Below, in pieces: positions 21,613-41,326 of a stretch of 64,000 bases of DNA (position 1 is the first letter of the stretch; each line of letters begins with the position of its first letter). The translations under genes and the position numbers were made by a program. The notes below the pieces were generated by a model, which had not been told where the DNA came from, did not search any database, and was given only the letters and a program-made list of their open reading frames with translations. The DNA lies in assembly GCF_000739085.1 (NCBI RefSeq), contig NZ_CP009110.1, forward strand, positions 3,906,001 through 3,970,000, read 5' to 3'. This DNA comes from Amycolatopsis methanolica 239 (lineage in GTDB: Bacteria; Actinomycetota; Actinomycetes; Mycobacteriales; Pseudonocardiaceae).

Positions 21613-22547
21613 TCACGCGGCCTCCGGGTTCACCATCCGCACCGCCTCACCCGCGGTGAGCGCGATCGCGTTGCGGGCGCACGACTCCGCCACCTTCGCC
21701 CGCACCGACCGCGTCGCGCTGCCCACGTGCGGCAGCAACGTCGTGTTGGGCAGGTCCGCCAGGCCGGGAGCCAGCCGGGGCTCGTCCTCGTAGACGTCCA
21801 GCCCGGCGCCCGCGATCTCCCCGCTCCGCAACGCCTCCACCAGGGCACGCTCGTCCACCACCGGGCCGCGCGCGGTGTTGATCAGGATCGCCGAGCGCTT
21901 CATCCGCCGCAGCACGGAAGCGTCGGCCAGGTGCCGGGTCTCCGCGGTCAGCGGCACGTGCAGCGACAGGAAATCCGACCGCTCGACCAGTTCGTCCCAG
22001 TCCACCCGCTCGACACCCGGCTCGTCGAGGGCCGCCGGCTGGTGCAGCGCACCGTCATCCCGAACGCGAGCGCCCGCCGCGCCACGGCCCGCGCGATGCG
22101 GGCGAACCCGGCCAGACCCAGCGACGCCCCGCTGACATCCCCGCCCAGCAGCAGCGACGGCTCCCACCCGGTGAACCGCCCGGCGCGCACGAACGCGTCC
22201 GCCTCCACACACCGCCGCGCGTTCGCCAGGATCAGCAGCATCGCCACGTCGGCGGTCGCGTCGGTGAGCACGCTCGGCGTGTTGCACACCCGGATCCCGC
22301 GCCGGGTCGCGGCGGCCACGTCGATGTTGTCGTACCCGACCGCGTAGTTGGAGATGCCGCGCAGCCGCGCCCCCGCCAGCACGTCGGCGTCGAACACGTC
22401 GGTCAGCTGCGCCACGACCACGTCGTACTCCCCCGACGCGCACACCGCGGCCAGATCCGGCGGCCGCTCCGGCACCACCACCGTGCCGGCCTCGCGCAGC
22501 AGCGTCATCCCGGGTTCCGGCAGCGGCGTGGTGACGGAGAACCTCAC
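21613..22547 (-). CDS. D-2-hydroxyacid dehydrogenase, frameshifted
   Basis: Both halves of an NAD-dependent 2-hydroxyacid dehydrogenase are present in different frames. The N-terminal half, from GTG 22547, has LRGISNYAVGYDNIDVAAAT and the Rossmann-type LGLAGFARIARAVARRALAF, where FARIA replaces the usual GRIG. The C-terminal half, down to TGA 21613, has SDFLSLHVPLTAETRHLADA, LINTARGPVVDE and NTTLLPHVGSAT, with the catalytic Arg/Glu/His set. One base is missing near 22032. The gene overlaps the stop of the HMG-CoA-lyase-like gene (GTGA) and ends the operon. If the frameshift is a sequencing error, the enzyme would interconvert a 2-keto acid and a D-2-hydroxy acid (glyoxylate/hydroxypyruvate reductase type). 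Confidence 0.8.
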
Positions 22548-23470
22548 CGGCAGCTCACCTCCGCGCCGAGCGCCCACGGGAAGGCCGTCGCGCTGGTGCG
22601 CGCCCCCTGCGCCGCCCGCGACCGGTTGGGTTCGCCCAGCTCGTCCAGCAGCGCACCGGACAACCGCACGATCCGCGCGAACGACGACGGCGTGAGCCAC
22701 GACGGCCGCAGCGCGAACAACAGGTCCTCGGTGGACGCGTTGCCGCTGGCGCCGGGCGCGAACGGGCACCCGCCGAGCCCGCCGAGCGCACCATCCACTT
22801 CGGACGCTCCGGCGGCGAGCGCGGCGAGCGTGTTCGCCACCCCCAGGCCCCACGTGTCGTGCCCGTGGTAGACGATCCGGCGGGGCGGCATCTCGGCGGC
22901 CACCCGCGCGACCAGGCTGGTCACCTGCGTGGGCACGGCCTGCCCGAGCGTGTCGCACAGCACGATGTCCCTGGCGCCCTCGGCGCGCGGGTCCCGCGCG
23001 ATCGCCAGCACCCGTTCCTCGGGCACCGCTCCCTCGAACGGGCAGGTGAACGAGGTGGCGATGCACAGCTGGATCCGGCCACCCGCAGCCGAAGCGGCCG
23101 CCACCGCCCGGGGCATCGCCGCCAGGCTGTCCTCTGTGGAGCGACCGATGTTGGCCCGGTTGTGCGCATCGGAGGCGGACAGGCAGTACTGGAAGTTGAC
23201 CGCCCCTGCCTCCGCCGCGCGCTCGACGTGCCGGGGCGTGGCCACCCACACCCAGCAGCGCGCCAGCTCGTCCGGGTCCAGCGCGCGGATCAGGTCGAGG
23301 GTGTCGGCCAGCGGCGGCACCAGGTCGGGCCGCGCCATCGAGCCGATCTCGACGCTCGGCACCCCGGCGTCGAGGAGTTCCCGGACCACCGCGACCTTGC
23401 GCGCGGTCGGCAGCGGTTTCCCCGTGAGCTGCAGGCCGTCCCGCAACGTCACGTCCCGCAGGTCAGTCAT
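22544..23470 (-). CDS. HMG-CoA lyase-like aldolase
   Basis: The 308-aa TIM barrel of the DRE metallolyase family starts with LRDVTLRDGLQ, where RD and Q fill the catalytic Arg/Asp/Gln positions. It has SVEIGSMARPDLVPPLADT, CIATSFTCPFEG and YHGHDTWGLGVANTLAAL, the last carrying the metal-binding His-x-His. The loop GLGGCPFAPGASGNASTEDL contains the active-site Cys typical of HMG-CoA lyases. It would split 3-hydroxy-3-methylglutaryl-CoA or a close relative such as citramalyl-CoA into acetyl-CoA and a keto acid. It overlaps the CoA transferase by 8 bases and the dehydrogenase by 4. Confidence 0.9.
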   Translation of the reverse strand: MTDLRDVTLRDGLQLTGKPLPTARKVAVVRELLDAGVPSVEIGSMARPDLVPPLADTLDLIRALDPDELARCWVWVATPRHVERAAEAGAVNFQYCLSASDAHNRANIGRSTEDSLAAMPRAVAAASAAGGRIQLCIATSFTCPFEGAVPEERVLAIARDPRAEGARDIVLCDTLGQAVPTQVTSLVARVAAEMPPRRIVYHGHDTWGLGVANTLAALAAGASEVDGALGGLGGCPFAPGASGNASTEDLLFALRPSWLTPSSFARIVRLSGALLDELGEPNRSRAAQGARTSATAFPWALGAEVSCR

Positions 23471-24668
23471 TTCCGGTGTCCTTCCGGCCGAGCAGGTGCA
23501 GGATCTCGTCGGTGTGCTCGCCGAGCTTGGGCCCGGGTGTCCGCAACGGCAGTGACTCGGTGCCGATCACCGGAACCACCCCGGGGAACCCGATCGGCAC
23601 CTCCTCGCCGGTGCCCGGGTCGACTGGCAGCGGCTGGATCATCGCCCGCGCCCGGTACTGTTCGTCGGCGCAGATGTCGGCCGCCGTGTAGATCGGGCCG
23701 GCGGGCACGCCGGCCTCGTCGAGCACCTTGAGCACCTCGTCGCGGTCGCGGCCGCGGGTCCACTCCGCGATCGCCTCGTCCAGTTCGTCGCGTCGCGCCC
23801 AGCGGCCCGCGTTGTCCGCCAGCCCGGGGTCGTCGGCCAGGTCGGGGCGGCCGATCGCGAGCATGTAGCGGCGGAAGATCGAGTCGCCGTTGCCCGCGAT
23901 CACCACGCTCGCGCCGTCGCCGCACTCGTAGGCGTTGCTGGGCGCGATGCCCTCCATCCGCCCGCCGACGCGCCGCCGCTCGACGCCGTAGGCGAGGTGG
24001 TCCGGCACGAGCGACTCCATCGTGGAGAACACGGCCTCGTGCAGCGCCACGTCGACCACCCGTTCCCGCAGCGGCCGCCTGCTGGGCACCACGGCCCGCT
24101 CGTACAGCTCGACCATGACGCCGAACGCGGCGTACAGCCCGGCGATCGAGTCGCCGATGGACACCCCGACCCGGGACGGCGGCCGGTCGGCCTCGCCCAC
24201 CAGGTTGCGCATTCCGCCCATCGCCTCGGCCACGGCGGCGAACCCGGGCCGGTCTGCCAGCGGCCCGGTCTGCCCGAACGCCGAGATCCGCGCGAGCACC
24301 ACGTCCGGGTTGGCGCGTTCCAGCTCCGCCGGCCCCAGGCCCCACTTCTCCAGCGTGCCTGGCCGGAAGTTCTCGATCACCACGTCGCAGCGCCGGACGA
24401 GGTCGAGCACGATGTCCCGGCCCTCGCCGGTGCGCAGGTCGACCGCGATCGACTTCTTGTTGCGGTTGACGGTGTGGAACAGCATGGACACCGTGCCCGC
24501 GTAGAGCCGCCAGTTGCGCAGCTCGTCCCCGCGGCCGGGGCGCTCGACCTTGATCACCTCGGCGCCCAGGTCGGCGAGCAGCCGCGCGGCGGTGGGCCCG
24601 GCGATGTAGTTGCCGAGTTCCAGCACGCGGACGCCGCGCAGCGGCAGGTGTGCGTGTTCGGTGTCCAT
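23463..24668 (-). CDS. family III CoA transferase (CaiB/BaiF)
   Basis: The 401-aa protein has the full family pattern: RVLELGNYIAGPTAARLLAD, LGAEVIKVERP, NRNKKSIAVDLRTGEGRDIV and ENFRPGTLEKWGLG, with the catalytic Asp expected in the VGVSIGDSIAG region. The pattern is close to succinyl-CoA:acid CoA transferases acting on hydroxymethylglutarate or citramalate. Placed directly before an HMG-CoA-lyase-like gene, it should activate the imported acid that the lyase then cleaves. ATG 24668 follows GGAAGGAACAG 16 bases after the permease stop. The substrate is inferred from context. Confidence 0.92.
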   Translation of the reverse strand: MDTEHAHLPLRGVRVLELGNYIAGPTAARLLADLGAEVIKVERPGRGDELRNWRLYAGTVSMLFHTVNRNKKSIAVDLRTGEGRDIVLDLVRRCDVVIENFRPGTLEKWGLGPAELERANPDVVLARISAFGQTGPLADRPGFAAVAEAMGGMRNLVGEADRPPSRVGVSIGDSIAGLYAAFGVMVELYERAVVPSRRPLRERVVDVALHEAVFSTMESLVPDHLAYGVERRRVGGRMEGIAPSNAYECGDGASVVIAGNGDSIFRRYMLAIGRPDLADDPGLADNAGRWARRDELDEAIAEWTRGRDRDEVLKVLDEAGVPAGPIYTAADICADEQYRARAMIQPLPVDPGTGEEVPIGFPGVVPVIGTESLPLRTPGPKLGEHTDEILHLLGRKDTGND

Positions 24669-24684
24669 CTGTTCCTTCCCGTTC

Positions 24685-26046
24685 TCAGAGGACGAGGTTG
24701 AGCGCGAGGATCGGACCGAGCGCCACCACGGAGGCGACCGAGACGCCCACCGAGACGGTCTTCAGCGCGCCGCGCGTGGTCTGGCCGAGCAGCGACTGCA
24801 GCAGCCAGAAGGTGTTGCTGGTCAGGTGGACCATGAACAGCGATCCGGCGCCCGCGGACAGCGCGATCAGCACCGGGTCCAGGCCCAGCGACGGCGCGAT
24901 CGGGGCGAGCAGGCCCGCGGAGGTGATCGCGGAGATCGTCACCGACCCGACCGCGATGTGCAGCACCGCGGCCATCAGCCACACCAGCAGCAGCGGCGCC
25001 CAGGTGTTGGCGGAGAAGTACTTGCCGAGGATGTCGCCGAGCCCGGCCGCGGCCAGCACCGCCGCGAGACAGCCGCCCACGCCGTTGAGCAGCAGGATCT
25101 GCCCGCTGTCCCGCAGGCCAGAGCCGAGCGCCGACTCCACCGCGGGCTGTCCCATGAACCGCCGTCCGATCAGGCAGGTGCCGACGAGGCCGAGCAGCAG
25201 CGCGACCACCGGGCTGGACAGGAACGCCACCACCGGGTTGGACCACTCCAGCATCTCGGCCACCGCGCCCGTCGCGATCAGCACTAGTGCGCCCAGCAGC
25301 GGGCTGAACACCACCGGCAGCGCGGGCGGCTTGCGCAGGTCGACCGCGGCCACGGTGCCCGGGCCGCCCTGCGGCCGCGCTTCCGGGGCAACGATCTCGT
25401 CGGCCATCTCGTCCTTGGCCGGGTCCCACCAGCCGCGGGCGAAGAGCACCGACATGATCGCGATCGCGATGGTCACCGTCGGGATGACCACGACGAGCCC
25501 GAACAGCAGGTACTTGCCCAGCGGCACGTGCAGCAGCCCGGCCAGTGCCAGCGCGCCGACGCCGGGCACGGTGAACACGATGCCGCATTCCAGCGCGATC
25601 GCCAGCGCCGTCGCCATGCGCGCGACGCCGCGTGGCCCGAGTCGTTTGCCGATCCCCCTGGCCAGGGGCCCGGAGATCACCAGCAGCACGTCGAGGAAGA
25701 TCGACTGCAGCAGGGTGGCGATGGTGAGCGCCATCGCGTAGGGGATCCGGCGTTCGCCGAACACCTTGAGCAGCTTGTCCACCAGGCGTTCGATCGCCCG
25801 CAGATCACGCAGGATCGCGCCGATGAGCACGCCGAACGCGATGAGCAGGCCGATCTCGGCCATCACGTCGCCGAAGCCGGCGGTGATCTCCTCCACCGTC
25901 TTGCTCACGCCGAGCCCGGTGGACAGCCCCAGGTAGCAGGAGCCGAGCACCAGTGCGATGACCGGGTTGAGCCGGAAGCGGACGATCAACACCACGATGG
26001 CCGCGACCGTGACCCCGGTGTTGATCAGTATTGCGGTGTCTGACAT
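24685..26046 (-). CDS. GntP-family permease
   Basis: The 453-aa membrane protein has about 12 hydrophobic segments. It shows GntP/gluconate:H+ symporter features such as NPVIALVLGSCYLGLSTGLG, GFGDVMAEIGLLIAFGVLIG, LDVLLVISGPLARG and ALECGIVFTVPGVGALALAG, and ends SVASVVALGPILALNLVL. It would import a hydroxylated or branched organic acid, the substrate of the downstream CoA transferase. It is the first gene of the four-gene operon and is preceded by an inverted repeat over a probable promoter. Confidence 0.93.
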   Translation of the reverse strand: MSDTAILINTGVTVAAIVVLIVRFRLNPVIALVLGSCYLGLSTGLGVSKTVEEITAGFGDVMAEIGLLIAFGVLIGAILRDLRAIERLVDKLLKVFGERRIPYAMALTIATLLQSIFLDVLLVISGPLARGIGKRLGPRGVARMATALAIALECGIVFTVPGVGALALAGLLHVPLGKYLLFGLVVVIPTVTIAIAIMSVLFARGWWDPAKDEMADEIVAPEARPQGGPGTVAAVDLRKPPALPVVFSPLLGALVLIATGAVAEMLEWSNPVVAFLSSPVVALLLGLVGTCLIGRRFMGQPAVESALGSGLRDSGQILLLNGVGGCLAAVLAAAGLGDILGKYFSANTWAPLLLVWLMAAVLHIAVGSVTISAITSAGLLAPIAPSLGLDPVLIALSAGAGSLFMVHLTSNTFWLLQSLLGQTTRGALKTVSVGVSVASVVALGPILALNLVL

Positions 26047-26117: not shown

Positions 26118-26200
26118 ATACTGATCATCAATGCTCGGAGGCCGCCGTAAAACGACAGGAATACATTGATTTTCGATAGATACCGCACGATACTCGGCGC

Positions 26201-26676
26201 ATGCTCGCCGAACGCTGGGTCGTCCCCCTCCTCCGGATCTTCCTCGTCGCGTTGTTCGGGATCCTGGTGCTGTTCCAGGTGATGTCACTGCCGGGGCAGT
26301 TCGCCCACATGGCACGGGAGGACCCCGAGATGGCCTACCTCAGGTGGCCGGCCACCGCCGTCACCGTGTTCTGGGTGCTGTGCGTCCAGGTGGTGATCTC
26401 GCGATGTGGCGGCTGCTCACGATGGTCCGCAAGGACCGCATCTTCAGCGAAGCCTCGATGCGCTGGGTGAACGTGATCGTCGGCGCGATCGCCGCCGGGT
26501 GGGCCGTGCTCGTCGCGGTCTTCCTCTACGTCGGCTTCAACGCCGACGACCCCGGCCTCCCGGTGGTGCTGTTCCTGCTGGTGGTCGGGGTCGCCGTGGG
26601 GCTGCTGATGGTCGTGATGCGCGCGCTGCTGCGGCAGGCCACCACGCTGCGCACCGACATGGAAGCGGTGATCTGA
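26201..26676 (+). CDS. DUF2975 membrane protein, frameshifted
   Basis: Two frames together give a DUF2975 protein of about 158 residues with four TM helices. The first part, from ATG 26201, reads WVVPLLRIFLVALFGILVLF and later VTVFWVLCVQVVIS. The second reads WRLLTMVRKDRIFSEASMRW and then two more helices, ending TDMEAVI before TGA 26676. The switch near 26400 needs one base. DUF2975 proteins are usually paired with a small HTH protein, and one follows at once (TGA then GTG). GATACT six bases before the ATG suggests a leaderless transcript. The role is unknown, probably membrane-linked control of the HTH partner. Confidence 0.75.
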
Positions 26677-26922
26677 GTGCCGATCGTCGTGCGCATCGAC
26701 GTCCAGCTCGCCAAGCGCAAGATGAGCGTCGGCGAGTTCGCCAAACGCGTCGGGATCACCCCGGCCAACGTCGCGGTGCTCAAGAACGGCCGCGCGAAGG
26801 CGGTGCGCTTCTCCACGCTGGAGGCGATGTGCCGGGTGCTCGACTGCCAGCCCGGCGACCTGCTGGAGTGGGTCCCCGACGACTCAGAGGTCGAGGACCA
26901 GGCGGGCGCCCTTCGAACGTGA
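26677..26922 (+). CDS. small Cro/C1-type HTH regulator (DUF2975 partner)
   Basis: The 81-aa protein is essentially one HTH_26/XRE domain: VQLAKRKMSVGEFAKRVGIT, then PANVAVLKNGRAKAVRFSTL and CRVLDCQPGDLLEWVPD. It matches the YozG-like proteins found after DUF2975 genes. GTG 26677 directly follows the DUF2975 stop, so the two are cotranslated. Its 3' end overlaps the convergent PDR-type reductase by 39 bases. Confidence 0.9.
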   Translation: MPIVVRIDVQLAKRKMSVGEFAKRVGITPANVAVLKNGRAKAVRFSTLEAMCRVLDCQPGDLLEWVPDDSEVEDQAGALRT

Positions 26923-27813
26923 CACGCAGATCATCATCACGTCGCCGGCGTCGCGCTCGTCGTCGTCGAGGACCGAGTCGCGGTGGTCGATCTCGCCGTC
27001 CAGCACGGTCGTCTCGCAGGAGCCGCAGATCCCCTCAGTGCACGAGGAGATCACGCGCACCCCGGCGTTCTCGGCCGCTTCCAGGATCGACAGCTCCGCG
27101 GGCACGGTGACCGTCATCCCGCTGGCCCGCAGTTCGACCTCGAACTCGTGCGCCTCGCCGCCGTGCTCGACCACGGTGAACCGTTCGACGTGCAGCGAAC
27201 CGGGCGGCCAGGCCTGGCACCGGGTCTCGACCGCGTCGATCAGCCCGGCCGGACCGCAGCAGTAGACCACAGTGGATTCCCGTGGCGGGGCGAGGATCGC
27301 GTCCAGGTCGAGCATCCCCGCCTCGTCCTCGGGCGTCACCACGACCCGCTCGCCGTAGGACTCCAGGTCCTTGACGAACGCCATCGAGGTCCGGCTGCGG
27401 CCCCCGTAGTGCAGGGTCCAGTCCGCGCCGGCGGCCTCCGCCGCGGCCACCATCGGCAGGATCGGCGTGATGCCGACCCCGCCGGCGACGAACAGGTATC
27501 GCGGCGCGGGCAGCAGCGGGAAGTTGTTGCGCGGCCCGCGGATCCGCAGGGTCGTGCCCGGGTGCGCGTGGTCGTGGATCCACGCCGACCCGCCGCGGCT
27601 GTCCGGTTCACGCAGGACCGCGATGCGCCAGCGGCCGTCCTCACCGCACAGCGAGTACTGCCGCACCAGTCCGTTCGGCAGCACGACGTCGATGTGCGCG
27701 CCCGGATCCCACGCGGGCAGATCCGCGCCGCCCAGCTCCAGCGACACGACGCCGTCGGACTCCACCCGCCGGGACACGACCGCCACGTCCGCCTCGAACA
27801 CCGGCTCAGGCAT
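26884..27813 (-). CDS. PDR/VanB-type ferredoxin reductase
   Basis: The 309-aa single-chain reductase runs flavin-NAD-[2Fe-2S]. The N-terminal flavin domain has RQYSLCG, the R-x-Y-S flavin motif. The NAD domain has AGGVGITPILPMVAAA and YCCGPAGLIDAV. The C-terminal plant-type ferredoxin has C258, C263, C266 and C296 (CTEGICGSCE then C). Phthalate dioxygenase reductases of this order use FMN and pass NADH electrons to a Rieske oxygenase. It overlaps the ABC permease start by 8 bases, so it is the last gene of an operon with the importer. A Rieske protein lies just across the divergent spacer and is its probable partner. Confidence 0.93.
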   Translation of the reverse strand: MPEPVFEADVAVVSRRVESDGVVSLELGGADLPAWDPGAHIDVVLPNGLVRQYSLCGEDGRWRIAVLREPDSRGGSAWIHDHAHPGTTLRIRGPRNNFPLLPAPRYLFVAGGVGITPILPMVAAAEAAGADWTLHYGGRSRTSMAFVKDLESYGERVVVTPEDEAGMLDLDAILAPPRESTVVYCCGPAGLIDAVETRCQAWPPGSLHVERFTVVEHGGEAHEFEVELRASGMTVTVPAELSILEAAENAGVRVISSCTEGICGSCETTVLDGEIDHRDSVLDDDERDAGDVMMICVSRSKGARLVLDL

Positions 27814-28603
27814 TGGTCTCCCGCATGCTGTAGACGGACTCGTGCCACGGGATGAAGAACCGCTTCAGGCCGTTGACCACGAAGTACAGCAGCAGCCCCA
27901 GCACCGACAACAGGATGATCACCGCGAACAACGCGGGCGCGTCGAGCGCGTTGAGCGTGCGCACCACCAGGTAGCCCAGCCCCTCGCTGCCGCCGAGGTA
28001 CTCCCCCACGATGGTGCCGATGATGGCCAGCACGATCCCGACCTCCATGCCGGCGAACACGTACGGCAGCGTGCTCTTGAACTCCAGGTGGTTGAACGTC
28101 TGCCACCGGTTCGCGTTGAGGCTGCGCATCACGTCCCGCTGCCCCGCCTCGACCGAGCGGACGCCCAGCTGCACGTTGAGCATGATCGGGAAGAACGCCA
28201 GCATCGCGGCCATGATCACCTTCGAGGTGATGCCGAAGCCGAACCAGATCACGAACAGCGGGATCAGCGCCACCTTCGGCACCACCTGGGAAGCCACGAT
28301 CAGCGGCCGCAGGCTGCGCTCCATCCACCGCACCTTGCCCAGCACGACGCCAGCCGCGACCCCGGCGACCAGGGCGATCGCGAACCCGCTGATCGTCTCG
28401 ATCGCGGTGACCCGCGCGTGGTACCAGGTGTCGCCGGTGGTGACCAGCTCGCCGAGGCTCGCGAACACGGTGCCCGGCCGCGGCAGCACCAGCTCCGACA
28501 TGCCGTTGACGCGCACGAACACGTCCCACAGCAGGAAGAACACGACCAGGATGAGCGGGGTGCTCACCCACGGCAGCCACCTACCGAAACGTTCCCTGTT
28601 CAC
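27806..28603 (-). CDS. ABC importer permease (SsuC/TauC type)
   Basis: The 265-aa permease is read from GTG 28603, four bases after the ATPase stop. Six TM helices are visible, together with the BPD_transp_1 cytoplasmic loop: SLNANRWQTFNHLEFKSTLP then YVFAGMEVGI, a form of the EAA motif. Its closest known types carry nitrate, sulfonate, taurine or aromatic acids. With the adjacent ATPase and substrate-binding lipoprotein it makes a complete importer. Confidence 0.93.
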   Translation of the reverse strand: MNRERFGRWLPWVSTPLILVVFFLLWDVFVRVNGMSELVLPRPGTVFASLGELVTTGDTWYHARVTAIETISGFAIALVAGVAAGVVLGKVRWMERSLRPLIVASQVVPKVALIPLFVIWFGFGITSKVIMAAMLAFFPIMLNVQLGVRSVEAGQRDVMRSLNANRWQTFNHLEFKSTLPYVFAGMEVGIVLAIIGTIVGEYLGGSEGLGYLVVRTLNALDAPALFAVIILLSVLGLLLYFVVNGLKRFFIPWHESVYSMRETNA

Positions 28604-28607
28604 CGGG

Positions 28608-29438
28608 TCACTCCTGCCTGTCGAGGGCGTGCCGCAGCTCGCGCACGATCCTGCCGAACTCCGGCTCGGTCTGGACGTCGAAATCACGCGGCTTGGGGAA
28701 GTCCACCATGCGGATCTCGCTGATGCGGCCCGGCCGCGGGCTCAGCTGCACCACCCGGTCGCCGAGGAACACCGCCTCGGTGATGTCGTGGGTGACGAAC
28801 ACGACGGTCGCCTTGGTGGCGAGCGCGATCCGTTGCAGCTCGGCGTTCATCCGCTCCCGGGTCAGCGCGTCCAGCGCGCCGAACGGCTCGTCCATCAGCA
28901 GCAGTTTCGGCCGCGTGGACAGCGCCCGCGCGATAGCCACGCGCTGCCGCATCCCGCCGGACAGCTCGCGCGGGTAGGACTTCTCGAACCCGGCCAGCCC
29001 CACCAGCTTCGCCAGCTCGTGGGCCCGTTCCCGGCGTTCACGCTTGCCCGCGCCCCGCAGCTTCAGGGGCAGCGCGATGTTGTCGGCGACCGAGTACCAC
29101 GGGAACAGGTTGGCGTCCTGGAAGACCACGCCGAGTTCGGACACCACGGAGGAGTCCACTCTGGACCCGTTCCACAGCGACCGGCCCTCGACGAGGATCT
29201 GCCCCTCGGACGGGCTCTGCAGCCCCGCGAGGGTGCGCAGCAGGGTCGTCTTGCCGCAGCCGGAGCGGCCGATCACGGACACGAACTCGCCATCGCTGAT
29301 CGTCAGCGTGATGTCATGCAGGGCGCGGGTAGTGGCGCGTTTGGACCGGAACTCCTTGCCGACACCGGCGAGCTCCAGCTTCGGCGGTGCGGCCTGCCGC
29401 GGGGCCGCGGTGAGCGTCTCGGCGTGGTGCGCGGACAT
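28608..29438 (-). CDS. ABC importer ATP-binding protein (SsuB/TauB type)
   Basis: The 276-aa ATPase has Walker A GRSGCGKTT, Q-loop VFQDANLFPW, signature ELSGGMRQRVAIARAL, Walker B LLLMDEPFGALD and the switch His in VTHDITEAV. ATG 29438 is preceded by GAGGAGACGC. It energises the permease at 27806 and lies 15 bases after the binding-protein gene. Confidence 0.95.
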   Translation of the reverse strand: MSAHHAETLTAAPRQAAPPKLELAGVGKEFRSKRATTRALHDITLTISDGEFVSVIGRSGCGKTTLLRTLAGLQSPSEGQILVEGRSLWNGSRVDSSVVSELGVVFQDANLFPWYSVADNIALPLKLRGAGKRERRERAHELAKLVGLAGFEKSYPRELSGGMRQRVAIARALSTRPKLLLMDEPFGALDALTRERMNAELQRIALATKATVVFVTHDITEAVFLGDRVVQLSPRPGRISEIRMVDFPKPRDFDVQTEPEFGRIVRELRHALDRQE

Positions 29439-29452
29439 GCGTCTCCTCGCGA

Positions 29453-30523
29453 TCAGGTGGTGGTGGCAGGCAGGAAGCTGTTGTCGAACCACCTGGCGGC
29501 GTCGCCGCCAGGCTTGGCCTGGCCCGCCCTGGTCAGCTCGTCGTAGCCGGCGGTCCACGCGGCCGGGTCGGTGACCAGCAGGGGCCGCGACGGGTCCTTG
29601 CCCGTCCACAGGTCACGCATCATGCCGAGGCTCTTGCGCGCGATCGCGTCGTCGTCGAGCGTGGCGAAGGAGTACTTGCCGCGCAGCGTCCCGATCGTCT
29701 TGCCGAAGTCCTGGTCGGCCACGTACTCCGCGACCGCATCGCGGATCCCGGCCATGAACGCCCGCAACGTGTCGGGGTGCTTGGCGATCACGTCGGCCGT
29801 GGTGACGTAGATCTGCGAATCGGACTTCACCACGGTGCCCGGGTCGAACACGCCCGCGTCCGCGTGCTGCGACTGCACGATGTTCGCGGTGTCGATGCTG
29901 ACCACGTACCCGGCGATCCGGCCCTGCTGCACCAGGTTGAACGTGCCCGGGGTGAGCCCGGTGACCTGGCGTGGCGTGCTCTTGGGGTCCAGCCCGGAGT
30001 TGGCCAGCACCAGCGACACGATCTTGCTGCTGGTGCCGCCCTCGGAGCTGACCCCAATGGTCTTGCCGACGAAGTCCTGCGGCTTCTCCAGCGGGGCCTG
30101 CTTGCTGTAGACGACGCGCACCGCGGAACCGCGGCACAGCGTGCCGATGTTCACCAGCGGCTGGTTCGATTCGGCGACCGCGGTCATCAGGTCGATCTGC
30201 CCGAGCCGCGCGACCACGCCGACACCGGCGATCAGGGTCTGCGTGGCCTGCGGCGATCCCTTGACCTCCTGCAGCGTGACGTCCAGCCCATGCCGCGCGA
30301 AGTGGCCGCCCGCGACGGCGAGCAGCTCCGGGGACATGGACAGGGTTTCCAGCGGCAGGATGCTCAGGAAGGTCGCCGTTCCGCTGCCGCCCCCGCCCGC
30401 CGCCGGGCCGGCGCCGCACGCGGACAACACGGCCGGCCCGGCGGCCACGGCCGCCGCGGTCAGCGCGGAACGCCTCAGGAATGCCCGCCGGGGCAACGAT
30501 GGACTCGGCGATGGAGTGGACAC
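29453..30523 (-). CDS. ABC importer substrate-binding lipoprotein (SsuA/NMT1 type)
   Basis: The 356-aa protein starts at GTG 30523 after GAGGAGAACCATC. It carries a twin-arginine-like signal (RRAFLRRSALTAAAVAAG) ending in the lipobox VLSAC, so it should be a lipid-anchored solute-binding protein. The mature part is an NMT1/SsuA-like periplasmic fold with VGVVARLGQIDLMTAVAESN, GKTIGVSSEGGTSSKIVSLV and an ending rich in RWFDNSFLP. The ligand is unknown; this family binds sulfonates, pyrimidine precursors and aromatic acids. It is the first gene of the four-gene minus-strand operon. Confidence 0.92.
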   Translation of the reverse strand: MSTPSPSPSLPRRAFLRRSALTAAAVAAGPAVLSACGAGPAAGGGGSGTATFLSILPLETLSMSPELLAVAGGHFARHGLDVTLQEVKGSPQATQTLIAGVGVVARLGQIDLMTAVAESNQPLVNIGTLCRGSAVRVVYSKQAPLEKPQDFVGKTIGVSSEGGTSSKIVSLVLANSGLDPKSTPRQVTGLTPGTFNLVQQGRIAGYVVSIDTANIVQSQHADAGVFDPGTVVKSDSQIYVTTADVIAKHPDTLRAFMAGIRDAVAEYVADQDFGKTIGTLRGKYSFATLDDDAIARKSLGMMRDLWTGKDPSRPLLVTDPAAWTAGYDELTRAGQAKPGGDAARWFDNSFLPATTT

Positions 30524-30726
30524 GATGGTTCTCCTCGTTCCTCCTGCCGGCCACCACCCTGTGACCGGCTGGGGAAGAGGTTGACCCGAGCCGATCGCCC
30601 CCGTCAAGGTCCCCGGTTTCCCGCCGCCGCAGGCGAGGGTCCAGCGGCGGTTCCCCGCCGGAGCGGAGTTTCCCCTGCTGGACAAGGGAAATCACGGCAC
30701 GGTGAGACGGGTCCACATGCGCCACT

Positions 30727-30741
30727 ATCGGGCTCGCCGAT
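30727..30741. promoter_or_regulatory. T-N11-A palindrome, candidate LysR operator
   Basis: ATCGG-GCTCG-CCGAT is a perfect 5+5+5 inverted repeat containing the T-N11-A pattern bound by LysR regulators. It lies in the 278-bp divergent spacer between the importer operon and the Rieske operon, and the latter is followed by a LysR gene. A second repeat, CGATG-CTCTT-CATCG, follows at 30738-30752. Confidence 0.45.
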
Positions 30742-30801
30742 GCTCTTCATCGAAACTTTCACTTTCCGCGCGACCCGTGGCGATCTCTACCGTGGCACAC
30801 C

Positions 30802-31254
30802 ATGAGGATCGTGGTGTCCCGGCTCGACGACTTCCCGCCGGGAGAGCGCCGGATCGTGCAGGCCGGCCGGCGGTCGATCGGGGTTTTCCGGGTCGGAGAC
30901 CGTTTCTACGCATTGAACAACCACTGCCCGCACCAGGGCGGCCCGCTCTGCCTCGGGGCCACCCAGCCGTGGCTGACCTCCGCCGCGCCCGGTGAGGTCC
31001 GGCAGGACGACGGCGACTCGCTCGTCGCCTGCCCCTGGCACGGCTGGGAGTACGACCTCGAGACCGGGCAGTCGTTCCTCGGGCCGGACGAACCGCCTGC
31101 CCGCACCTACGACGTGTCGGTCGAGCGCGGCAAGAACGGGCGCATCCCCGGCCCGTACGTCGCCGAGACGTACCCGGTGCACGTGGAGGACGCCTACGTG
31201 GTCGTGGACACCAGCGGCGGAGCACGCCCTGGCGACAAGGGAGGTGACCGGTGA
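30802..31254 (+). CDS. Rieske [2Fe-2S] protein
   Basis: The 150-aa protein is a single Rieske domain with C42-x-H44 (HCPHQGG) and C77-x2-H80 (CPWHGWEYDLETG). The insert between the two ligand pairs is longer than in plain Rieske ferredoxins, and there is a C-terminal VHVEDAYVVVD strand. No catalytic mononuclear iron domain follows, so it is an electron carrier or a stand-alone subunit, not a full oxygenase. It begins the plus-strand operon, overlaps the next gene by GTGA, and probably draws electrons from the PDR-type reductase across the divergent spacer. Confidence 0.92.
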   Translation: MRIVVSRLDDFPPGERRIVQAGRRSIGVFRVGDRFYALNNHCPHQGGPLCLGATQPWLTSAAPGEVRQDDGDSLVACPWHGWEYDLETGQSFLGPDEPPARTYDVSVERGKNGRIPGPYVAETYPVHVEDAYVVVDTSGGARPGDKGGDR

Positions 31255-32351
31255 CCAGCACTGCCATCGCCGGGCGGCCCGGCAGCACGCCCGGCCGCAC
31301 GGGCTACACCATCGTCGACACCGACATCCATCCGGCGGCCCCGGCCGCCGCCATCCGGGAGCGGCTGCCGGAGAAGCACCGCGCGCGGTGGGACCTGTTC
31401 GGCAGCCGGGTGCCGGGTCCGCCGGAGATCTACCCGCGGGTCCGCAATGCGGGCTTCCGGCTGGACTCCTGGCCCGAGGGCGGGCCGCCGGGCAGCGACC
31501 TGGGGATGATCCGGGACCAGCTGCTCGACGAGTTCGGCGTCACCCACGGCATCTTGATCCCGCTGCAGAGCCACAGCTGGGGCGCCGAGGAACCGGAGTA
31601 CGCCGCCGCGCTGTGCCGGGCGCTCAACGAGTGGCAGATCGAGACGCTGCTCGAGCCGGAACCCCGGCTGCGCGGGTCGATCGCCATCCCGATCGAGGCG
31701 CCCGACCTCGCGGCCGAGGAGATCCGGCGGCACGCCGGCGACCCGCGGTTCGTGCAGGTGCTGCTGTCCACCGGCGGGGAGCTCGGGTTCGGGCGCCGCC
31801 GGTACTGGCCGATCTACGAGGCCGCGGCCGAGGCCGGGCTGCCGGTCGCGGCGCACACCGGCGGGCTGGAGATGCACCGCGGCGCCGGGTGGCCGTCGTT
31901 CTACCTCGAAGAGCACGTGTGGAACGGCAACCTGATGGCCGCGTTCGTCACCGGGATCCTCTGCGAGGGCGTCCTGGACCGGCTGCCGGACCTGAAGGTG
32001 ATCTGCGTGGAGGGCGGCATCGCCTGGGCCGGGCCGTTGATGTGGGCGCTGGACGACGCGTGGGAGCAGCTGCGCGGCGACGTGCCGCACCTGGTCAAGC
32101 CGCCGTCGGAGTACATCCGCGAGCGGTTCTGGTTCACCACGCAGCCGATCGAGGAGCCCGACGACCCGCGCGACCTCGACAAGGCGCTGGCCCACCTCGG
32201 GATGGACGAGCGGATCATGTTCGCCTCCGACTACCCGCACTGGGACTTCGACTCCCCGCGGCACGCGCCGCGCCTGTTCCCCGCCGCGCTGCGCGAAGGC
32301 GTCATGGGCGTCAACGCGTGCCGGCTTTACGGTCTGCCGGAGGCCTCATGA
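31251..32351 (+). CDS. amidohydrolase-2 family protein (ACMSD-like), first of two
   Basis: The 366-aa metal-dependent TIM barrel starts with IVDTDIHPAAP, with D-x-H at the first metal site. Its central strands have VAAHTGGLEMHRG and VICVEGGIAW, and it ends with MFASDYPHWDFDSPRHAP, which supplies the distal Asp and His. This matches the amidohydrolase_2 branch that includes decarboxylases of the ACMSD and gamma-resorcylate type and hydrolases of aromatic-ring cleavage products. GTG 31251 overlaps the Rieske stop. The reaction is unknown; decarboxylation or C-C hydrolysis of an aromatic-derived acid would suit the neighbours. Confidence 0.88.
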   Translation: MTSTAIAGRPGSTPGRTGYTIVDTDIHPAAPAAAIRERLPEKHRARWDLFGSRVPGPPEIYPRVRNAGFRLDSWPEGGPPGSDLGMIRDQLLDEFGVTHGILIPLQSHSWGAEEPEYAAALCRALNEWQIETLLEPEPRLRGSIAIPIEAPDLAAEEIRRHAGDPRFVQVLLSTGGELGFGRRRYWPIYEAAAEAGLPVAAHTGGLEMHRGAGWPSFYLEEHVWNGNLMAAFVTGILCEGVLDRLPDLKVICVEGGIAWAGPLMWALDDAWEQLRGDVPHLVKPPSEYIRERFWFTTQPIEEPDDPRDLDKALAHLGMDERIMFASDYPHWDFDSPRHAPRLFPAALREGVMGVNACRLYGLPEAS

Positions 32352-33406
32352 CCGCCGCGGTCGGCACCACCCGCATCGACGCCGAAATCCACTGTGGACC
32401 GTCGTCGCTGAACGACCTGGTGCCCTACCTGGAACCCTACTGGCGCGGCTACGTGCTGGAGGGCGGCCTGATGCTGTCCCCGCACCAGGGCGGCGCCTAT
32501 CCCCCGGCGGCGCCCACCAGCGCCACCCCGGCCGCGCGGGCCGCGGGCCTGACCCCCGCCCACGACGCGGCGGCGGTGCGGGCCGGCCTGCTCGACGGGC
32601 TGCGGGCGGCGATCCTGGTGTGCACGACGTCGTTCCACTGCAACCGCAACCCCTACTACGAAGCGGCGCTCACCCGCGCGATCAACGACTGGCTGGTCGC
32701 GGAGTGGCTGAGCACCGACGACCGGCTGCGCGCCAGCATGGTGGTGCCGACGCTGGACGCCGAGGCCGCCGCCGCCGAGATCGAACGGATCGGCGACCAC
32801 CCGGGGATCGTGCAGGTGCTGCTGCCGGTGCGCACGGACGCGCCGTGGGGCAACAAGCGGCACCGGCCGATCCTGCGGGCCGCCGCCGAACGCGGCCTGG
32901 TGGTCGGCCTGCACGCGTGGGGCCGGATCGGGAACGCGCCCACCAGCACCGGCCTGACCCACACCTACCTCGAGGACTACGTGGGCAACTCGCAGATGCT
33001 CGTGCAGGCCCAGCTCACCAGCCTGGTCGCCGAGGGGGTCTTCGCGGAACTGCCGGACCTGCGGGTCGCCCTGCTGGAGTGCGGGTTCTCCTGGCTGCCC
33101 GCGCTGCTGTGGCGGTTCGACAAGGACTGGAAGGGCGTGTGGCGCGAGGTGCCGTGGCTGGGCGCGAAACCGTCGGAGGTGGTGGCGCGGCACATCCGGC
33201 TGACCACCGCGCCCGCGCAGCTGCCGCGGGACCCCGCGCAGGTGCGGGAGGCGCTGGACATGGTCGGCGCCGGCTCGATGCTGATGCACGCCAGCGACCA
33301 CCCGCACGACCACGGCGGCAGCGGGCAGCGGCTGCTCGACGCGCTGACCCCGGCCGAGGCGGAGGCGGTGCTCGCGGGCAACGCGGCGGCCTGGTACGGG
33401 ATCTGA
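32348..33406 (+). CDS. amidohydrolase-2 family protein, second of two
   Basis: The 352-aa protein is distantly related to the preceding one. It starts RIDAEIHCGPSSLNDLVPYL, with E-x-H at the first metal site. It has GLHAWGRIGNAPTSTGLTHT in place of the His strand, LLECGFSWLPALLWRFDKDW, and ends LMHASDHPHDHGG. Tandem amidohydrolases of this type often act as a hetero-oligomer or on successive intermediates. ATG 32348 overlaps the first amidohydrolase by ATGA. Substrate and partner relation are not visible from sequence alone. Confidence 0.88.
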   Translation: MTAAVGTTRIDAEIHCGPSSLNDLVPYLEPYWRGYVLEGGLMLSPHQGGAYPPAAPTSATPAARAAGLTPAHDAAAVRAGLLDGLRAAILVCTTSFHCNRNPYYEAALTRAINDWLVAEWLSTDDRLRASMVVPTLDAEAAAAEIERIGDHPGIVQVLLPVRTDAPWGNKRHRPILRAAAERGLVVGLHAWGRIGNAPTSTGLTHTYLEDYVGNSQMLVQAQLTSLVAEGVFAELPDLRVALLECGFSWLPALLWRFDKDWKGVWREVPWLGAKPSEVVARHIRLTTAPAQLPRDPAQVREALDMVGAGSMLMHASDHPHDHGGSGQRLLDALTPAEAEAVLAGNAAAWYGI

Positions 33407-33408
33407 CC

Positions 33409-34278
33409 GTGTTCGACGGGTTCACCTGCCAGGACGTGGCGACGCCCGCGGGCGGGCGCGTCCGGGTGCGCGTCGGCGGCAGCGGCCCGCCGGTGCTGTT
33501 GCTGCACGGCTACCCGCAGACCTCGGCCATGTGGCACCTGGTCGCGCCCGAGCTGGCCCGGGACCACACGGTGATCGCCGCGGACCTGCCCGGTTACGGG
33601 GACAGCGTGGCGCCGGGCGCGGACCTGGCGGCGTTCGGCAAGCGGGCGATGGCGCGCGAGCTGGTCTCGGTGATGGGCCGGCTCGGGTTCCGCCGCTTCG
33701 CCGTCGCCGGGCACGACCGGGGCGGGCGCTGTGCCTACCGGCTCGCGCTCGACCACCCGGACGCGGTGACCGCGCTGGCCGTGCTGGACATCCTGCCCAC
33801 GGCCGACGTGCTGGCCACGGTGGACGCCGAGTTCGCCAGGTCAGCGTGGCACTGGTTCTTCCTCGCCCAGCCGGGTGACCTGCCGGAACGGTTGATCGCC
33901 GCGGACCCGGACGCGTTCTTCCTGCGCGGCGCGGACGGGATCTTCGCCGAGCCCGCGCTGCGCGCCTACCGGGCGGCCTACCGGCGGCCGTCGGTCGTGC
34001 ACGCGATGTGCCAGGACTACCGTGCGGGCGCCACCGTGGACCGGGTCGACGACGAAGCCGACCGGGGCCGTCGGCGGATCGCCTGCCCCACGCTGGTGCT
34101 GTGGGGTGCGGCCGGACCACTCGGGAGGACCGATGACGTGCTCGCCGTGTGGCGGCCGTGGGCCCCGCGGGTCACCGGTCTGGCGCTGGACTGCGGCCAC
34201 TACCTCGCCGAGGAGCGTCCCGCCGAGACCGCCAGGGCGTTGCGGGAGTTCCTTTCCGCCACACGACAAGATCCTTGA
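33409..34278 (+). CDS. alpha/beta hydrolase with fluoroacetate-dehalogenase residues
   Basis: The 289-aa protein has HGYPQT at the oxyanion site and AGHDRGGRCAYR at the nucleophile elbow, with D103 instead of Ser. R104 and R107 fit the carboxylate-binding arginines of fluoroacetate dehalogenase. D127 (LDILPT), the pair H148-W149 (AWHWFF) and H264 (CGHYLAEERP) also fall at the offsets expected for the catalytic Asp, halide-binding His-Trp and general base. The set suggests hydrolysis of a 2-haloacid or a related small carboxylate ester. GTG 33409 follows the second amidohydrolase by two bases, so it is the last enzyme gene of the operon. Confidence 0.87.
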   Translation: MFDGFTCQDVATPAGGRVRVRVGGSGPPVLLLHGYPQTSAMWHLVAPELARDHTVIAADLPGYGDSVAPGADLAAFGKRAMARELVSVMGRLGFRRFAVAGHDRGGRCAYRLALDHPDAVTALAVLDILPTADVLATVDAEFARSAWHWFFLAQPGDLPERLIAADPDAFFLRGADGIFAEPALRAYRAAYRRPSVVHAMCQDYRAGATVDRVDDEADRGRRRIACPTLVLWGAAGPLGRTDDVLAVWRPWAPRVTGLALDCGHYLAEERPAETARALREFLSATRQDP

Positions 34279-34303
34279 CACCCGATCTCGCCCGGCTGCT
34301 AAT
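34275..34303 (+). promoter_or_regulatory. lysR promoter
   Basis: TTGACA (34275-34280) and GCTAAT (34298-34303) are separated by 17 bases. The predicted start point is the A of ATG 34310, so the lysR mRNA would be leaderless. The -35 overlaps the stop of the dehalogenase-like gene. Confidence 0.6.
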
Positions 34304-34309
34304 GGATCC

Positions 34310-35275
34310 ATGGGTTCGGCCGTCCGCAAGGTGACACGACGCCCGTTGTCGTTGGCGAGTCTGGACCTGAACCTCCTGGTGTTCCTGCGTGAGCTGCTGC
34401 GTGAGCGCAACGTGACCCGGGCGGCCGAGCGGGTCGGGGTGAGCCAGCCGACGGCCAGCGCGGCGCTGTCCCGGCTGCGCCGCCACTTCGACGACCAGCT
34501 GCTGATCCGGTCCCGCGGCTCGTACGTGCTGTCCCCGCTGGCGGCGCAGCTGGCCGGGCAGGTGGAGCCGTTGTGCGCCAGCCTGGAGCGGTTGTTCGCC
34601 ACCACGCCGGGGTTCGACCCGGAGTCCTCGGAGCGCGAGTTCACCCTGCTGATGCCGGACTACGTGCTCGCCGCCTACGGGGAGCAGCTGTCGGCGGCGA
34701 TGTACGCCGCGGCGCCGAACATCCGGATGCACGTGCGGGTGGTGCGGGAGCGGCTGCCGGCCGACATCCCGGAGGCGCTGCGTGTCATCGACGCGATGAT
34801 CTGCGCCGCCAAGCCCGAGCTGCACGCGCCGGGGATCAACTCGCTGGAGCTGTTCCGGGACCGCTGGGTGTGCGTGGTGTCCGCCGACAACCCGGTCGGC
34901 GACCGGCTGGAGCTGTCCGACCTGGAGCGGCTGCCGTGGGTGGTGCCACACCACCCGGACGGCGGTTACCCGGCCACTTCGCCGCTGGGGCCGCTGATGG
35001 CGAGGCTGTCCACGCGCCCGCGGGTGGCGGTGCGGGTGGACAGCTACCAGGCGACGCCGTACTTCATCGCCGGGACCGACCGGATCGCGGTCATGCAGCG
35101 GCGGCTGACTCGCTACCTGGCCGGCCGGTCGGACCTGCGGATCCTGGAGTGTCCGGGCGACCCGCCGCCCATCGTGGAGATCATGTGGTGGGACGAGCGC
35201 AAGGAACACGACGAGGCGCACCGCTGGCTGCGGCAGGTGGCCCGGCAGGCGGCGCGGCGGTCGGAGGGTCCGTGA
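34310..35275 (+). CDS. LysR-family transcriptional regulator
   Basis: The 321-aa protein has the N-terminal LysR HTH (about residues 15-75: LDLNLLVFLRELLRERNVTR then AAERVGVSQPTASAALSRL) and a C-terminal substrate-binding domain of the NodD/LinR-like branch (MPDYVLAAYGEQLSAAMYAA, PWVVPHHPDGGYPATSPLGP). It has its own promoter inside the end of the operon. It is the likely activator of the Rieske/amidohydrolase genes and perhaps the importer, through the T-N11-A site at 30727. It overlaps the TMEM175-like gene by GTGA. Confidence 0.93.
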   Translation: MGSAVRKVTRRPLSLASLDLNLLVFLRELLRERNVTRAAERVGVSQPTASAALSRLRRHFDDQLLIRSRGSYVLSPLAAQLAGQVEPLCASLERLFATTPGFDPESSEREFTLLMPDYVLAAYGEQLSAAMYAAAPNIRMHVRVVRERLPADIPEALRVIDAMICAAKPELHAPGINSLELFRDRWVCVVSADNPVGDRLELSDLERLPWVVPHHPDGGYPATSPLGPLMARLSTRPRVAVRVDSYQATPYFIAGTDRIAVMQRRLTRYLAGRSDLRILECPGDPPPIVEIMWWDERKEHDEAHRWLRQVARQAARRSEGP

Positions 35276-40028: not shown

Positions 40029-40337
40029 GTGGACATCGTCTTCGACGCAGAGCTCTGGGTGTGGGACGCGCGGCGCGCCGACACCTGGACGTTCGTGAGC
40101 CTGCCCGCCGACGCCTCGGACGAGATCAGCGACCTCACCGAGGGCAGCCGCCCGGGCTTCGGCTCGGTGCGGGTGCGCGTCCGGGTCGGCGCGACCACGT
40201 GGACGACCTCGGTCTTCCCGGACAAGGCGCGCGGCTGCTACGTGCTGCCGGTCAAACGCGCCGTCCGGGAAGCCGAGGGCCTGCACCCGGGCGACACCAC
40301 GGCCGTCACCCTCGAAGTCCTCACGAGGCCGGCGTGA
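40029..40337 (+). CDS. DUF1905 protein
   Basis: The 102-aa protein begins MDIVFDAELWVWDARRADTW and shows the DUF1905 beta-barrel pattern, with GSVRVRVRVGATTWTTSVFP and YVLPVKRAVREAEGLHPGD. Its 3' end overlaps gcoB by 17 bases on the opposite strand. The function of the family is unknown. Confidence 0.85.
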   Translation: MDIVFDAELWVWDARRADTWTFVSLPADASDEISDLTEGSRPGFGSVRVRVRVGATTWTTSVFPDKARGCYVLPVKRAVREAEGLHPGDTTAVTLEVLTRPA

Positions 40338-41325
40338 ACTTCTCCCGGTGGATCCGCCGCGGCGACATGCGGCGCCGTTTGAACGCCTTGACCCCGGCCT
40401 CCACCATCGCCGGCGGGCCGCACAGCCACCCGGACCAGCCGCGTCCACTGGGGACGTCCTCCACGAACGCGTCGGTCGGGAAACCGCTGCGGTACGCCGG
40501 ATCCGGCTCGTCCGACAGCACCGGCACGAACCGGAAGCCCGGGTGCTGCTCCGCGATCTCGGCGAACCGGCCGAGGTCGTACAGGTCCGCCGCGCCGCGC
40601 ACCCCGTGGTACAGCAGCACCTCCCGCGACGGATGCCGGGCCAGCGCGGTGCGGGCGATGCCGACCAGCGGCGCCAGCCCGGTGCCACCGCCGATGAGCA
40701 CCATCGGGCCGCCGTCGTCCTCGTCCGGCGGCGGCAGGTGGAAGTCGCCCAGCGGCCCGGTCGCCTCGACCCGGTCGCCTGCGGTGAGCCCGTCGAAGAG
40801 CCAGCGGTCGGTGGCGATCCCGCCGGGCACCCGCCGGACGTGCAGCTCCAGCACCTTGTCCTCGTCGGCCGTGTTGGCCAGCGAGTACTGGCGCCGCGCG
40901 CCGGAGCCGGGCACGACCAGCTCGACGTACTGCCCGGCCTCGAACGCCAGCGGCTCGGCCAGGCCCAGCAGCACCCGGCGGGTGTCGCGCGCGATGTCGG
41001 CCACCTCCAGCACGGTGGCCGTCAGGTCGCGCAGCGGGTGCGTGACGCGTCCGGCCTCTGAGGTGCTGCGCACCTCCGTGTCGGCGAGCGGCCGGGCCTG
41101 GCAGGCGAGCGCCAGTCCGGCCGCGCGTTCGTCGGCGCTGAGGGTGTCCTCCGGCGCAGCGCCGTGGTCGACCTCGCCGGAGAGCACCTGGAGCTTGCAG
41201 GTGCCGCAGGTCCCCTGGTTGCATGAGTTGGGCATCCACACCCCGCCGCGCAGGAACGCCTCCAGCAGGGTCTGGCCGGGCTCGCAGTCGACCCGCCTGC
41301 CCCCGACGCTGACCGCGAACGTCAC
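40321..41325 (-). CDS. gcoB: aromatic O-demethylase reductase GcoB
   Basis: The 334-aa reductase runs [2Fe-2S]-FAD-NAD, the reverse of the PDR order. C35, C40, C43 (SCNQGTCGTC) and C75 hold the cluster. RRQYSLAN binds FAD, and GGGTGLAPLVGIA with WLCGPPAMVEAG forms the NAD site. GcoB has exactly this domain order and length and delivers NADH electrons to the P450 GcoA in a two-component system. GTG 41325 starts one base after the gcoA stop and is preceded by GGGAGGTGTGAG. The assignment rests on the partner gene and remembered properties of the characterised enzyme. Confidence 0.93.
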   Translation of the reverse strand: MTFAVSVGGRRVDCEPGQTLLEAFLRGGVWMPNSCNQGTCGTCKLQVLSGEVDHGAAPEDTLSADERAAGLALACQARPLADTEVRSTSEAGRVTHPLRDLTATVLEVADIARDTRRVLLGLAEPLAFEAGQYVELVVPGSGARRQYSLANTADEDKVLELHVRRVPGGIATDRWLFDGLTAGDRVEATGPLGDFHLPPPDEDDGGPMVLIGGGTGLAPLVGIARTALARHPSREVLLYHGVRGAADLYDLGRFAEIAEQHPGFRFVPVLSDEPDPAYRSGFPTDAFVEDVPSGRGWSGWLCGPPAMVEAGVKAFKRRRMSPRRIHREKFTPAS

Positions 41326-41326
41326 C

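Follow-up and report, generated by a model that had tools for sequence, protein, structure and literature searches.

Here we have analysed a 64,000-nt stretch of Amycolatopsis methanolica 239 (NZ_CP009110.1, positions 3,906,001-3,970,000; hereafter the window), in which a nine-gene island at 26884-35275 very probably holds an oxygenase annotated as two amidohydrolases, H1 and H2. We are confident that this island, whose four minus-strand and five plus-strand genes diverge within the surrounding 7.24-Mb genome, codes for a multicomponent monooxygenase of the AibH1H2 type, along with an importer of its own and a hydrolase partner. Its core can be placed with high confidence as a further member of the AibH1H2-type family of amidohydrolase-related dinuclear oxygenases (AROs); we recognised it by the same logic, from Rieske neighbour to ARO, through which AROs were defined and found (PMC10811679). 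AibH1 and AibH2 are the subunits of the Rhodococcus 2-aminoisobutyrate (Aib) hydroxylase, which acts with the Rieske protein AibG and the flavin reductase AibF and for which the published account describes no product once any one of these four components was omitted (PMC7782822). The active cofactor of AibH1H2 is reported as Mn/Fe, and the 555 AibH2-like proteins gathered in that report are described there as all uncharacterised at the time (PMC10401708). The original prediction, made from the sequence alone, had described a divergent catabolic island here, and its nine genes stand at the coordinates given for them, with Pfam families that agree with their names; it had also seen no oxygenase catalytic subunit, which is very probably present under the amidohydrolase label, and had read both proteins as hydrolases. 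Overall, that interpretation is partly supported.

The case for an oxygenase begins with the matches of the two subunits to known structures. The closest PDB sequence to H2 is AibH2 (6m1w_B, 1.2e-78), followed by the AROs 8sm7 and SfbO, while H1 matches 8sm7 (4.4e-58) and AibH1 (3.1e-57) about equally; gamma-resorcylate decarboxylases match the two far more weakly (best 1.7e-13 and 8.6e-4). The PF04909 TIM-barrel fold is present in both, as judged by Pfam (Amidohydro_2) and, for H2, also by Foldseek. Aligned on the AibH2 reference positions (D25, H27, H211, E265, D337, H340 and second-sphere D342), H2 carries all six dinuclear ligands as D25, H27, H202, E254, D327 and H330, with D332 at the position of the second-sphere Asp. 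H1 has the mononuclear-site residues E13, H15, H189, E244 and D317, in which Glu replaces Asp as the first ligand. When the ligand and second-sphere residues were read as a string across a 91-sequence set (43 H2-labelled rows, 42 H1-labelled rows and PDB references), DHHEDHD was found in 43/43 H2-labelled rows, in AibH2 and in the remaining four ARO structures. Among the H1-labelled rows, 36/42 read DHHEDHH, as does AibH1, and 3/42, the window included, read EHHEDHH; the others comprise one with a gap at the first position, one ending in Q and one, the single-gene ARO L043, with DHHEDHD. The last position, Asp or His, therefore tells catalytic from auxiliary subunits in this set, with one exception (Q).

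A FastTree phylogeny of the same 91 sequences separates an H1 clade of 42 (AibH1 and every H1 row except L043; support 0.99) from an H2 clade of 43 (AibH2 and every H2 row except L041; support 0.86), each clade with its own Aib counterpart. By this split, H1 and H2 are an old pair. The single-gene AROs L041 and L043 group instead with SfbO and 8sm7-8sm9. Such single-gene AROs, each with an adjacent Rieske gene, were observed on plasmids from three hosts, a haloarchaeon, a Pseudomonas and a Sulfitobacter (L041 8974-10499, L043 8701-10165, L044 8662-10181). A structural model of H2, of moderate confidence (pLDDT 78.1, pTM 0.84), returned AibH1H2 chains at Foldseek ranks 1-6 (38-39% identity, TM 0.79-0.80). 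By sequence, ligands, tree and, for H2 only, fold, the two proteins are very probably AibH2/AibH1-type oxygenase subunits, and their assignment as hydrolases or decarboxylases is rejected on metal ligands and match scores.

The island also encodes candidate redox partners for the two subunits. A small Rieske gene adjoins H2, as in AROs, and encodes a protein whose nearest PDB chain is CarAc (9.6e-9); the PDR-type reductase has the motifs RQYSLC, GGVGITP and Cx4Cx2C...C and best matches two P450 chains over their C-terminal part (5e-80 and 1.5e-76), then phthalate dioxygenase reductase (2pia, 1.6e-57). With the proteins beside two aib-ordered clusters, L040 and L059, as stand-ins for AibG and AibF, the window Rieske protein is 40-42% identical and the window PDR 56% identical. 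L059 is a second ARO cluster of the same genome (L059 8942-12777; G000:C1:4832942-4836777) with the aib order H1-H2-Rieske-PDR, near a 3-hydroxyisobutyrate dehydrogenase (HIBADH, above the NCBIfam cut-off), an aldehyde dehydrogenase (ALDH) and, by eye, a ketol-acid reductoisomerase-like gene; in the tree its subunits fall with AibH1 and AibH2 (support 1.0), and it is likely an Aib-type system. For the island, we propose that NADH electrons would pass through the PDR reductase and the Rieske ferredoxin to a dinuclear site (Fe2 or Mn/Fe) in H2, which would pair with H1, activate O2 and hydroxylate a small acid, brought in by the importer, at a C-H bond. The Asp-nucleophile hydrolase would belong to this pathway too, its likeliest reaction being a hydrolytic displacement at the carboxylate alpha carbon, and LysR may control both operons from the spacer between them. 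The substrate class is probably a small carboxylate.

Conserved synteny in other actinomycetes, the check suggested with the original prediction, bears out the island as a unit. All nine genes are intact in two other genomes at 97.6% and 95.7% DNA identity and the core recurs in further genera, which excludes a chance assembly; in A. tucumanensis the island proteins are 95-99% identical to those of the window. When genome contigs were scanned, 80 loci of 122 relatives were retained, of which the closest 37 (L065-L101) are actinobacterial by title and the remaining 43 (L102-L144) are from Chloroflexi, Poribacteria and other groups, in part on short contigs; this set and a separate 150-genome survey overlap in some genomes. 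Across all 80 loci, H2 is present in 67, a Rieske gene in 50, LysR in 22, a hydrolase immediately downstream of H1 in 17, the full set of three ABC genes in 8 and a PDR gene in 2, with the order Rieske-H2-H1 on one strand in 29. For the closest 37, the corresponding counts are 37 (in two frames in L068), 34, 22, 17, 8 and 2, and two of the three loci lacking Rieske end at a contig edge. The hydrolase is present in 13 of the 16 loci whose H1 is at least 66% identical and adjacent in none of the 43 distant ones; the genera that bear it are Amycolatopsis, Qaidamihabitans, Saccharopolyspora, Pseudonocardia and Actinomycetospora. The arrangement amidohydrolase-amidohydrolase-Rieske also lies on plasmids of Mesorhizobium, Rhodococcus and Roseomonas (6 of 91 matching records examined). 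Separately, H1-like proteins were observed in 23 Poribacteria loci (L108, L114, L119, L120, L123-L128, L130-L133, L135-L137, L139-L144), whose fetched flanks hold an H2-like match in 11/23 and a Rieske match in 1/23, and SerC and SerA genes, named by eye, lie upstream of Rieske-H2-H1 in three Solirubrobacterales metagenome-assembled genomes (L090, L094, L101).

The partner hydrolase, originally described as an Asp-nucleophile, dehalogenase-like enzyme, does carry the full dehalogenase residue set. It can be assigned on its sequence to the fluoroacetate dehalogenase family, dehalogenation itself being putative: identity to the fluoroacetate dehalogenase RPA1163 is 46-47%, with TM up to 0.93 (model pLDDT 91.4). 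By sequence it is closest to Alr0039, followed by a Pseudomonas 'probable epoxide hydrolase', and it may also be read as a Cif-like epoxide hydrolase. The catalytic set D103, R104, R107, D127, H148, W149, Y204 and H264 is invariant in 19/19 ARO-linked copies; Asp110, Tyr219 and His280 of RPA1163 are named in PDB entry titles, and the remaining RPA1163 counterparts are presumed. The Arg pair in this hydrolase family would hold a carboxylate, so a small acid fits as the pathway substrate. Hydrolases of this kind are common (81/150 genomes at E <=1e-40), and copies of at least 60% identity occur in 5/150 genomes, the window's own included, directly after H1 in 5/5. A 23-protein tree splits 18 ARO-linked hydrolases from three others and two PDB chains (support 0.99). 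Motifs look similar in all three non-linked proteins, and the residue set does not by itself mark out the ARO-linked clade.

Table 1. Genes of the island and the spacer between its two operons, in window coordinates.
Feature	Position	Strand	Basis
PDR/VanB-type reductase (flavin, NAD, C-terminal plant-type 2Fe-2S), proposed AibF counterpart	26884-27813	-	Fer2 and NAD_binding_1 (Pfam)
ABC permease, SsuC/TauC type	27806-28603	-	BPD_transp_1; SsuC and TauC models below cut-off
ABC ATPase, Ssu/Tau/nitrate type	28608-29438	-	Pfam; NCBIfam models below cut-off
NMT1-family substrate-binding lipoprotein (SBP)	29453-30523	-	NMT1 3.6e-25; lipobox LSAC
Divergent spacer, exactly 278 bp	30524-30801		Alignment of 6 spacers and sequence
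Rieske [2Fe-2S] ferredoxin, AibG counterpart	30802-31254	+	CxH...CxxH present
H2, Amidohydro_2, very probably AibH2-like catalytic ARO subunit	31251-32351	+	6m1w_B 1.2e-78; ligands; tree; fold
H1, Amidohydro_2, very probably AibH1-like auxiliary subunit	32348-33406	+	PDB matches; ligands; tree
Alpha/beta hydrolase, fluoroacetate dehalogenase family	33409-34278	+	Sequence and structure matches; residue set
LysR regulator	34310-35275 (alternative start 34331)	+	HTH_1 and LysR_substrate

Several observations weigh against the monooxygenase as drawn here. Within the subunits, the first Asp ligand is Glu in the window H1 (as in 5/19 rows of a smaller alignment), and confidence in the H2 model is low over 329-334, the segment that holds H330 and D332. 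The 43 distant loci hold H2 in only 30 and Rieske in only 16, the fetched DNA being sometimes short. The adjacent hydrolase is missing from 63/80 loci, and from 20/37 of the closest, and so is not part of the core; moreover, L150, one of the three hydrolases counted as not linked, lies only 5.8 kb from a different ARO pair. A PDR gene is near the module in only 2/80 loci (L065, L091), and in L058 the PDR gene adjoins a VanA-type oxygenase, which leaves the dedication of the reductase to the module uncertain. Finally, neighbours vary between genomes, so that one common substrate is not assured.

Set beside AibH1H2GF of Rhodococcus wratislaviensis, as described in PMC7782822 and PMC10401708, the island likewise has two PF04909 subunits, one with a six-ligand dinuclear and one with a mononuclear set, as well as a Rieske ferredoxin, a flavin/2Fe-2S reductase and LysR. 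It differs in its order (Rieske-H2-H1, against H1-H2-G-F in aib), in an ABC importer that replaces the aib amino-acid permease, in the added dehalogenase-family hydrolase, in lacking the Aib-pathway dehydrogenases, serine hydroxymethyltransferase (SHMT) and alanine dehydrogenase, and in a Glu that takes the place of Asp as the first ligand of H1. As reported, SfbO and further AROs are also PF04909 oxygenases next to Rieske genes with DHHEDH ligands (PMC10811679), but the four used here fall outside the H1 and H2 clades. RPA1163 shares its catalytic set with the island hydrolase, whereas the island copy is fixed behind an oxygenase in an operon, its dehalogenation putative. The platensimycin hydroxylase PtmU3, whose role is biosynthetic, shares the PF04909 oxygenase fold with H2 at 24% identity in the fold match. 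New here are the partner hydrolase and the importer, the oxygenase type being already known. Few AROs have a known reaction, and this clade gives clues to function through its importer, its partner hydrolase, whose active site is defined, and the many relatives already sequenced; its import protein is a direct handle on the substrate. More generally, an 'amidohydrolase' label beside a Rieske gene can hide an oxygenase.

As for that substrate, the leads diverge: the neighbours in certain genomes suggest aromatic or lignin acids, those elsewhere an AcnX/dehydratase route. It is possible, and we put it forward tentatively, that the ARO pathway serves a methyl- or methoxy-substituted aromatic (lignin-derived) acid, hydroxylation of which would yield an alcohol or release formaldehyde. 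Neighbours in 38 related ARO loci include an NDMA-dependent alcohol dehydrogenase family in 12 loci and an MHS-type symporter in nine, with ALDH in six and an aromatic-acid-symporter-like family in three, although these dehydrogenase and lignin-type counts are raw, without a background rate near random genes; of the four families, each scanned against NCBIfam through one representative, only the alcohol dehydrogenase passed the curated cut-off. A LigM O-demethylase (above cut-off) in L072, a LigXa-type oxygenase in L070 and LigB-type dioxygenases in L091 and L054 (Pfam) point the same way, as does the reported dealkylation by SfbO of 2-aminoethylsulfonate buffers such as PIPES (PMC10811679). 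However, the window island has none of these genes, contexts vary among genomes, and in L092 and L097 the module's companions are instead AcnX and an FAD oxidoreductase.

We are more doubtful of an ARO pathway for a hydroxylated aliphatic acid that would feed a route of FAD oxidoreductase, AcnX and IlvD-type dehydratase. Relatives of the SBP (43-76% identity) occur at 13 places in 10/150 genomes, eight beside an ARO and five not; four of these five have an FAD oxidoreductase close by, the fifth ending at a contig edge, and AcnX and an IlvD-type dehydratase are present at L145 and L149 (naming rests in part on similarity and sequence starts). FAD oxidoreductase and AcnX also accompany AROs in L056, L058, L092 and L097, and the window genome has an FAD oxidoreductase-IlvD-MFS-AcnX operon with an adjoining LysR-like gene. 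Yet that operon, which lies ~130 kb from the island and holds the genome's only AcnX match, has its own MFS transporter, and AcnX type IIa is left without an assigned substrate in the accounts cited (PMC5144071, PMC8184944). A group that joins FAD oxidoreductase (PF12831 by similarity) to both AcnX subunits, large and small, and an IlvD-type dehydratase recurs (L145 2961-10394, L158 8444-14433), either with a relative of the island SBP or with an MFS transporter.

A dedicated oxygenase and dehalogenase pathway, in which the ARO (Mn/Fe or diiron) would hydroxylate an imported alpha-substituted or halogenated carboxylate and the hydrolase would cut the remaining carbon-halogen (or equivalent) bond, seems unlikely. 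If true, it would be, to our knowledge, the first ARO coupled to a dehalogenase. A literature search found no paper joining a fluoroacetate dehalogenase with amidohydrolase and Rieske genes, its broader matches being judged unrelated from their listing; PMC7176365 appears to concern 2-hydroxyisobutyrate, not this system.

It is very unlikely that H1 and H2 are true hydrolases or decarboxylases of ring-cleavage products, with the Rieske and PDR proteins serving a ring-hydroxylating oxygenase encoded elsewhere. PF04909 does include decarboxylases, among them gamma-resorcylate decarboxylase, which weakly matches both subunits, and LigW, which weakly matches H2; furthermore, 18 Rieske domains, the island copy included, are found in the genome, and the PDR in L058 has its VanA-type neighbour. 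Nevertheless, ARO E-values lie more than 30 orders of magnitude below decarboxylase E-values for both proteins, the six dinuclear ligands hold in every H2 row, and Pfam found no Rieske ring-hydroxylating oxygenase alpha subunit (Rieske plus mononuclear Fe domain) among the nine island proteins. Least probable of all is a Rhodococcus-type Aib catabolic cluster, which shares the four components and has in AibH2 the best PDB sequence match of H2, and which we reject on neighbour genes, HIBADH, ALDH, SHMT, alanine dehydrogenase and an amino-acid permease all being absent among the nine proteins, the gene order differing, and the same genome holding the aib-ordered L059 with HIBADH and ALDH.

Returning to the proposed import and control of the monooxygenase, the ABC importer that had been predicted is there in full, as a BPD_transp_1 permease, an ATPase and an NMT1 lipoprotein. 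The SBP has weak PDB matches only (best a taurine-binding protein, 29.6 bits), which are uninformative on its ligand. The original prediction had also described two tightly overlapping operons sharing a 278-bp spacer and a LysR gene: the spacer holds to the base pair, and overlaps of 4, 4 and 8 bp join three pairs of neighbours (the remaining gaps being 2-31 bp), but LysR closes the plus operon and does not lie in the spacer. In the spacers of six genomes from four genera, the window included, a block GGCCACCACCCTGTGACCGGCTGG near the SBP start is conserved, and a block ATCGAAACTTTCACTTTCC before Rieske is conserved less strictly, which suggests shared control. An ATCGG-N5-CCGAT repeat, found by eye, lies at 30727-30741 and is imperfect in L047, L048 and L049. 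A search for a LysR box, as a T-N11-A site with at least 5/6 paired positions, found none in the window spacer and such sites in L047 and L049 only.

Beyond the island, an adjoining operon at window 22544-26046 has HMG-CoA-lyase-like, CaiB-type CoA transferase and GntP-type permease genes (all below NCBIfam cut-offs) and is kept beside the island in two close species. A small open reading frame also adjoins the island (window 26197-26676) and is indel-disrupted relative to a 159-aa version in G017 (L045 3551-4030). Lastly, window 40321-42550 holds a cytochrome P450-like gene with a ferredoxin-domain reductase partner, as judged from sequence starts only.

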